Of a DNA stretch of 64,000 bases, positions 718 to 4,133 are shown one piece after another. The notes beneath the pieces were generated by a model that saw only the letters and a list, made by a program, of their open reading frames with translations, did no database searches and was not told the origin of the DNA. Location: NCBI GenBank assembly GCA_002162075.1, contig CP021423.1, positions 1,426,001-1,490,000 of the forward strand, given 5' to 3'. Source of the DNA: Armatimonadetes bacterium Uphvl-Ar1. GTDB lineage: Bacteria > Armatimonadota > Fimbriimonadia > Fimbriimonadales > Fimbriimonadaceae. The translations under genes and the position numbers were made by a program. Numbering within the stretch: the first letter of the stretch is position 1; every line of letters starts with the position of its first letter.

Positions 718-797
718 AAGTCGAGGAGCGCTGCGATCGAAAGAGACCAGGCTCGACCACCCCGAACGAACTCGGGACAAGAACTGCGCTCGCAACC
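718..797 (+). promoter_or_regulatory. SAH riboswitch aptamer upstream of ahcY
   Basis: The stretch matches the S-adenosylhomocysteine riboswitch layout: GAGGAGCGCTGCGA (723-736), then CCAGGCTCGA (747-756), an optional hairpin CCCGA/TCGGG (761-765/772-776) and a 3' element TGCGCTCGC (785-793). P1 pairs TCGAG (721-725) with CTCGA (752-756). The pseudoknot pairs GAGCGC (726-731) with GCGCTC (786-791). It lies immediately upstream of the adenosylhomocysteinase gene, the known target of this class. The sequence match and both pairings are seen directly; ligand binding is inferred. Confidence 0.85.
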
Positions 798-828
798 AAA
801 AAAACCGGTTGCGAGCGTTTTCCTTTTA
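787..828 (+). terminator. Intrinsic terminator forming the riboswitch expression platform
   Basis: CGCTCGCAACC (787-797) and GGTTGCGAGCG (807-817) form an 11-bp perfect stem with a 9-base loop, followed by a T-rich tract (818-828). The 5' arm overlaps the 3' strand of the riboswitch pseudoknot (786-791), so pseudoknot and terminator exclude each other. Bound SAH would therefore block termination and switch ahcY on. Confidence 0.85.
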
Positions 829-2450: not shown

Positions 2451-3922
2451 TTACTCCACTTCCAGCAAACCCTGACCGCTCCGAACGGTCGCCATCTCCC
2501 CAACGACCCCCTTCGCAATCCCGTCCCGGTCAAACGTCGCCGAAACCTGAATTGGATAATTCCCCGTGAAGCACGCATTGCAGAACCGCCTCTCCCCAAT
2601 CCCCACTGCATCCATTGCCCCATCCACGCTCAAATATCCCAAAGAATCAGCCCCCAAATGCACCCGAATCTCTTCAATCGTCTTATTCGCCGCAATCAGC
2701 TGCTCCCGACTCGCCATATCAATTCCATAGTAACAAGGGTGCTCAATTGGCGGTGCCGTAATGCGCACATGAACCTCCTTCGCCCCGTTCTCCCGCATCA
2801 TCCGCACAATCTGATCGGTTGTTGTCCCCCGCACAATCGAGTCATCCACCAATACAATCCGTTTCCCGGCGATATTCTGGCGCAGAGGGATAGCTTCATC
2901 CGCACCCCCAACTCCCGCATCCGTTGGTCCGGCTGAATAAAGGTACGGTGAATGTAACGACTCTTCATCATCCCCTCGCCAAACGGAATCCCACTCGCCT
3001 GCGCAAATCCAATTGCCGCCGGAATCCCACTGTCCGGAACCGGCACCACCAAATCCGCCTCAACCGGATGCTCTGCCCAAAGAGCCGAACCCATTCGAAA
3101 TCTCGCCTGATAAAGCGAAGTTCCATACATGACACTATCCGGACGGGCAAAGTAAATAAACTCAAACAAGCACATATTTCCCCGGGTCGAACCCTCGGTT
3201 AAGAATGACCTCAACCCTGTCGAATCCACAACCACCACTTCACCCGGCATCAAATCTCGTTCAAAACGCGCCGCAACCGGGTCAAACGCACAACTCTCAC
3301 TCGCCAGCATCCACCCTTCTCCAATCCGCCCCAAACTCAGCGGCCTCACTCCAAATGGATCGCGGAACCCAATCAACCGGTCTTCCATACAAACCGCCAC
3401 CGAGTAAGCCCCCTCAATCTTCGCCATCGTCCGCCGAACCGCTTCGTCAATGCCCAGCTCCATGTACCGCATCAACAAAACCGCAATCAATTCGCTGTCT
3501 GCATCGGTCTCAAACTTTTGCCCCTCGGCCCGCAACTCCGCATGAAGTTCCGCCGAATTCGTCAAATTTCCGTTATGCGCAACCGCCATCTCCCCCACAA
3601 CTGTCACACAGAAAATCGGTTGAGCATTCCTCTGCTCGCTCCCCCCAGATGTCGAATACCGCGTATGCCCGACCGCCACATGCCCCGGCAAACCATCTAG
3701 AATCTGCTCTGTAAAGATCTTACTGACCAGCCCCATATCCTTAAACATCCGCACCTTCCCGCCATCACTCGCCGCGATCCCCGCCGACTCCTGCCCCCGA
3801 TGCTGAAGGGCAAAAAGGCCAAAAAACGCGAGCCGCGCAACTTCCTCCCCCGGAACATAAAACCCAACCACACCACACTCCTCCTTAATCCGATCCAGAT
3901 GCCATTCGTCGTGGTGCTTCAC
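2451..3922 (-). CDS. purF: Amidophosphoribosyltransferase (frame broken once)
   Basis: First committed step of purine synthesis: PRPP plus glutamine to phosphoribosylamine. The N-terminal Ntn glutaminase starts with the nucleophile Cys in KEECGVVGF, preceded by a short propeptide. The phosphoribosyltransferase domain carries [10 protein letters not shown]. Cysteines in [16 protein letters not shown] and FCNACFTG match the 4Fe-4S type of PurF known from Bacillus. The frame breaks at 2887-2889, where one extra base in a GGG run (CCC in the coding sense) restores [19 protein letters not shown] and gives 490 residues, the normal length. Start chosen at GTG 3922, because TATTAT lies seven bases upstream; the longer TTG start at 3955 lacks support. 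Probably a sequencing indel. Confidence 0.9.
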
Positions 3923-3935
3923 TCCCCAGATAATA
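3923..3935 (-). promoter_or_regulatory. -10 box for leaderless purF
   Basis: On the minus strand TATTAT (3930-3935) is followed by seven bases and GTG 3922. The same start-proximal -10 spacing occurs at many genes in this window. Confidence 0.5.
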
Positions 3936-4133
3936 CTCGCCTTAACTAAAATCAATGTGTCAAGAATCTTGGCTCAGCAGCTTGTCCGTTCCTCTTTCTC
4001 GATTCCCTCAACCTTCAAGCCATTTTCACGCACGTCAGTCAGCATCACCGATCGTCGAGCCACTCTACTCTACCAGCAAAATTACCTGCATCGCAATTCT
4101 AAAAACCGACTCTAGGCCCGAATCTAAATCAGC

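Follow-up and report, generated by a model that had tools for sequence, protein, structure and literature searches.

S-adenosylhomocysteine (SAH) is a toxic by-product that the hydrolase encoded by ahcY breaks down. Most documented SAH riboswitches come from beta- and gammaproteobacteria (PMC4239095), and the leader of the ahcY gene studied here raises the question of whether a true member of this class controls SAH hydrolase synthesis in the Armatimonadota, by what output it would do so, and how gene and RNA came to be there. The locus lies in a stretch of 64,000 nucleotides of genomic DNA, called the window, to which all coordinates refer unless another locus is named. A preliminary description made from the letters of the window had proposed a SAH riboswitch whose pseudoknot shares a strand with a terminator, such that SAH should switch the gene on, and had noted that an Armatimonadota host would broaden the known range of the class.

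When a 501-base segment was searched against all of Rfam, a full-length match to the SAH riboswitch family RF01057 was obtained at 717-798 on the + strand, with a score of 35.1 bits (E 6.4e-5). This aptamer was also the sole RF01057 match in the complete genome (2.985 Mb, one contig; E 9.0e-5). The score is below the RF01057 gathering score of 37 bits, which is a curated cut-off and not a structural feature, and Rfam at its curated thresholds lists only a tRNA over the window and no RF01057. The preliminary description had asked for this search and had given a sub-threshold score as grounds for refutation. Formally 35.1 bits is such a score, although the E value of the same match and the model described next both speak for the family. 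A covariance model (R2) was built from an alignment (A1) of 38 aptamers from other Armatimonadota genera, the genus of the window being left out. An automatic RNAalifold structure (R1) paired P1 with pseudoknot letters and was discarded; the explicit known structure (P1, P2, and pseudoknot) was used for R2. With R2 the window aptamer scored 51.8 bits (E 9e-10, 154 kb searched) and was again the sole match genome-wide (E 1.7e-8). The RF01057 cut-off is passed by 64 other Armatimonadota genomes, with scores of 38.7-62 bits. The low score of the window is attributed to a lineage having a short P2 and a 16-nt insertion in the linker rather than to a false match, and the missed cut-off is outweighed by the leave-genus-out model, by covariation, and by the conserved placement before ahcY. 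Membership is therefore claimed on structural criteria rather than on the Rfam cut-off, and by those criteria, all read from sequence, 717-798 is a genuine SAH riboswitch aptamer of the RF01057 class with SAH as its predicted ligand. Among other Rfam families the aptamer gave no match to the SAM/SAH riboswitch (RF01727) or to SAM-II. A sub-threshold CRISPR-DR54 match at 817-844 (E 0.19) was taken as chance. The features of the locus are as follows.

703-711, + strand: probable extended -10 element, TGG-TACAAC, weak in the window (4/6)
717-798, + strand: SAH riboswitch aptamer (RF01057 and R2 matches), 74 nt upstream of ahcY
720-725, + strand: P1 5' strand, GUCGAG, pairing with 752-757
726-731, + strand: pseudoknot 5' strand, GAGCGC, pairing with 786-791
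732-736, + strand: ligand-pocket stretch, with G733 taken as G15 and C734 as C16 of PDB 3NPQ
737-746, + strand: short P2 hairpin of 2 bp, read from the sequence and aligned to P2 by R2
752-757, + strand: P1 3' strand, CUCGAC, pairing with 720-725
761-776, + strand: extra linker hairpin CCCGA/UCGGG (761-765/772-776) between P1 and the pseudoknot, from RNAfold
786-791, + strand: pseudoknot 3' strand, GCGCUC, shared with the foot of the terminator 5' arm
786-827, + strand: intrinsic terminator, stem 787-797/807-817 plus G786-U818, loop 798-806, U-tract UUUUCCUUUU at 818-827
862-865, + strand: probable Shine-Dalgarno sequence, AGGA, outside the switch structures
872-2284, + strand: ahcY, S-adenosylhomocysteine hydrolase, 470 aa (PF05221, E 5.1e-145; PF00670, E 1.2e-80)

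The family (RF01057, R2) and the target (PF05221) named in the preliminary description were thus both borne out, and every element it listed is present. The pseudoknot GAGCGC/GCGCUC was found as claimed, and P1, given there as TCGAG/CTCGA, is one pair longer (GUCGAG/CUCGAC). The 16-nt insertion contains the extra hairpin 761-765/772-776, and three relatives within the genus (L002-L004) also have a hairpin at this site, of other sequence. Pocket positions were carried over to the window through the 3NPQ numbering as we take it to run. The nucleotides around bound SAH, G15, C16, A29, and C46 (PMC7057144), are all retained, at 733, 734, 749, and 784, respectively, and C46 is invariant (109/109).

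Covariation supports the same structure. When P1, P2, and the pseudoknot were mapped onto the 38 Armatimonadota relatives, 93% of the cells were paired and 10 of 17 pairs had double changes. The double-changed cells numbered 79 versus 28 upon shuffling, and controls in which the structure was slid gave 3-20. P1 covaries at six of eight pairs. The pseudoknot helix is paired in 100% of the aligned relatives and hardly varies, and hence the covariation that supports it consists mostly of one-sided changes.

The terminator stem 787-797/807-817 is exactly that of the preliminary description, to which RNAfold adds the G786-U818 pair to give 12 bp (-21.7 kcal/mol). When the pseudoknot occupies 786-791, the hairpin that remains has only 6 bp (-8.7 kcal/mol) and the U-tract no longer lies at its foot. 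As 786-791 is shared, pseudoknot and terminator exclude one another, and ligand binding should favor read-through, which upholds the exclusion and the ON logic predicted earlier. This overlap is a property of the lineage: a terminator beginning in the pseudoknot strand is found in 54 of 66 Armatimonadota loci versus 18 of 330 shuffled controls (5.5%), and in most of the remaining 12 loci this hairpin is present but its U-tract is poorer. Across these loci the terminator 5' letters inside the pseudoknot strand are nearly constant. The distal terminator arms show compensatory changes, occurring in 24 versions that always pair (100% for the two arms of one locus versus 71% for arms exchanged across loci). 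In the window the U-tract UUUUCCUUUU is interrupted and imperfect. A pattern scanner did not call this + strand terminator, apparently because its loop of 9 nt exceeds the scanner limit of 8. A hairpin plus U-tract that is mutually exclusive with the predicted ligand-bound fold is the arrangement expected of a terminator platform.

Of 66 Armatimonadota loci, 53 have a match of at least 5/6 to TATAAT immediately before P1 (shuffled mean 6.2), and the conserved place of this -10-like element implies that transcripts start near P1. In the ahcY leaders of Armatimonadota an extended -10 motif, TGTGGNATAAT / TGCCATAAT, recurs some 10 nt ahead of P1; by eye no obvious -35 was seen in these leaders.

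Taken together, the locus is very probably a transcriptional ON switch for ahcY, with SAH as the expected ligand and with the co-transcriptional order and ligand-dependent read-through read from the RNA's layout. RNA polymerase would transcribe the aptamer first. At high SAH levels the ligand would bind and lock the pseudoknot 726-731/786-791, so that the foot of the terminator 5' arm would already be occupied when the 3' arm (807-817) is transcribed. Transcription would then run into ahcY and the SAH would be hydrolyzed. At low SAH levels 786-797 would pair with 807-818, the U-tract would follow, and transcription would end some 45 nt short of the start codon. Between completion of the shared strand and synthesis of the terminator 3' arm lie 16-26 nt, which would presumably give the aptamer a head start.

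A translational SAH switch could be built from the same parts if the pseudoknot strand instead competed for pairing with the ribosome-binding region, and among the 43 proteobacterial loci there are indeed 19, most of them from Oxalobacteraceae, in which the strand is paired to the start-codon region. In the window, however, the partner of the strand is 807-818, well away from the AGGA and the ATG at 872, both of which lie outside the hairpin. With a U-tract after that hairpin, and with terminators in 54 of the 66 Armatimonadota relatives, we regard translational control here as very unlikely. The low Rfam score and a P2 of only 2 bp might also be read as signs of decay, the element being a plain terminator or attenuator behind an aptamer relic that no longer senses SAH. 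A relic would not be expected to keep all four pocket nucleotides and the pseudoknot, to score clearly with the lineage model R2, or to persist in five species of the genus while the linker and terminator arms vary, and so we find this reading highly improbable.

Known members of the class prefer SAH over SAM. The remaining alternative is a real aptamer with a changed ligand, such as SAM, which would draw on U785: position 47 is U in the window, a departure from the G of the Rfam consensus. The G/C/U counts at this position are 46/14/6 in Armatimonadota and 16/14/13 in Proteobacteria. Since all three letters occur at this position in both lineages, U785 is no special change and carries no message. 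An altered binding pocket at this site was therefore ruled out, and we give a changed ligand almost no credence. The transcriptional ON switch responding to SAH is the reading that we carry forward.

Two neighbors of the gene should be mentioned. Upstream, 284-682 encodes a ribbon-helix-helix regulator (RHH_8, E 9e-45). On the 3' side of ahcY, a purF-like amidophosphoribosyltransferase on the - strand (2451-3955) is broken up into two frames that overlap (2798-3955 and 2451-2852). In the close relative G001 (L201, 7336-8856) the purF-like gene stays in a single frame through the corresponding point. The split in the window genome is either a frameshift or an assembly error.

Judged by AhcY, the nearest named relatives among the matches listed are metagenome-assembled genomes (MAGs) of Fimbriimonadaceae and other Armatimonadota, and the host is indeed a member of the Armatimonadota. 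RF01057 matches were present in 70 of 291 Armatimonadota genomes, or 69 after removal of G267, which confirms the suggested broadening of range; a search of the papers available for this analysis found none on riboswitches in Armatimonad* or Fimbriimonas. With R2 the two weak matches of G267 and a second match in G137 reach 14-21 bits; they lie inside long open reading frames and below the gathering score, and were rejected as false positives. In every usable case the riboswitch target is ahcY. An AhcY match was found in 262 Armatimonadota genomes, and we defined the Proteobacteria-like type as at least 75% identical to the AhcY of the window. This type is encoded in 67 genomes, all 67 of which have the riboswitch, and the other two riboswitch genomes (G077 and G094) have the same AhcY type starting at a contig edge. 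No riboswitch was found in genomes having an AhcY 60-66% identical or the type of about 430 aa (about 38% identity). The genus of the window is itself mixed for AhcY types: five species have the riboswitch plus the window-type AhcY, and G002, G005, and G006 (L192-L196) have the AhcY of about 430 aa (38% identity). The latter three were considered as cases of riboswitch decay and rejected, as their AhcY is of the different type and R2 gave no match beyond chance.

How the coupled pair arose was approached through AhcY. After Armatimonadota, the closest AhcY proteins among the matches listed from a collection of 84,980 species are those of Proteobacteria, mainly Betaproteobacteria, at about 75-80% identity. 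A tree of 87 AhcY proteins places those of the Fimbriimonadaceae and of family f10 with the Proteobacteria and separates them from the Armatimonadota type of 60-66% identity (SH-aLRT 100); f10 is nested among Betaproteobacteria (SH-aLRT 95). In this tree, which came from a quick search and on which the clades tested were chosen after the tree had been seen, a single clade of all Armatimonadota AhcY proteins was rejected (AU p 0.011), and f1 and f10 constrained together were not (p 0.072). Rejection of the single clade suggests that ahcY moved laterally together with its riboswitch, and the simplest reading is that the two were likely transferred between phyla as a unit. That Proteobacteria were the donors is our inference, as is the number of transfers. 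A separate second acquisition by f10, suggested by its nesting, was kept as a possibility only, as f1 and f10 together are allowed. As for in-place exchange of two AhcY types, the near-identical G001 was the only genome in which the window neighbors were seen next to ahcY, and no common exchange site is therefore identifiable. Two database records were seen along the way: JADZEW010000021.1 (L008), titled Methanoregulaceae archaeon, has a Fimbriimonadaceae-like ahcY with a SAH riboswitch, and CALPVM020000004.1 (L074), titled Akkermansia muciniphila, has a betaproteobacteria-like ahcY. Both are probably mislabeled records or mixed bins.

The original SAH riboswitch descriptions (Wang 2008; Weinberg 2007) reportedly already proposed gene activation and overlapping platforms. 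With the proteobacterial riboswitch the window element shares P1, P2, the pseudoknot, the pocket nucleotides, the ahcY target, and the ON logic, which in the window is predicted, and it differs in its Armatimonadota host and extra linker hairpin. The proteobacterial element is reported to raise ahcY expression in response to SAH (PMC7057144). Seven proteobacterial lineages are known to have it before ahcY, and metF is often part of the same operon (PMC4239095), whereas no metF follows ahcY in the window. The same pseudoknot/terminator layout is clear in the betaproteobacterial locus L066, CGGCGCUCGCAUCGGAAACGGUGCGGGCGCUUUUUGCUUUUU, but by the strict terminator criterion it is found in only 5 of 43 proteobacterial loci (12%; shuffles 4%), not far above the shuffle rate. 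The overlap is thus rare in the proteobacterial set and the rule in Armatimonadota. In Oxalobacteraceae (e.g., L017 and L021) the pseudoknot 3' strand is likewise the shared strand that is competed for, although there it pairs with the start codon (AUGAGCGCC) whereas that of the window forms a terminator, and the same shared-strand logic therefore serves two outputs. The SAM/SAH riboswitch (RF01727) and SAM-II are also small pseudoknotted aptamers with related ligands, but are other aptamers in other gene contexts, and their ligand-bound forms block the ribosome-binding site (PMC10907184).

These comparisons lead us to a tentative proposal, which we consider possible but on balance somewhat doubtful: the riboswitch-ahcY cassette may have moved at least once, and perhaps twice, from Proteobacteria into Armatimonadota (Fimbriimonadaceae and f10), replacing a distant AhcY, with the output half rebuilt (start-codon hiding versus termination) and the shared pseudoknot strand left unchanged. 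The riboswitch class is a known one and its output is standard; the interest lies in the lineage-wide distribution, the strict coupling to one AhcY type, and the likely joint transfer. For the family, the Rfam cut-off misses true SAH riboswitches in Armatimonadota. The Armatimonadota loci offer a clean case for studying the joint movement and retention of a gene and its RNA sensor, and a case for one aptamer strand reused with two different outputs.
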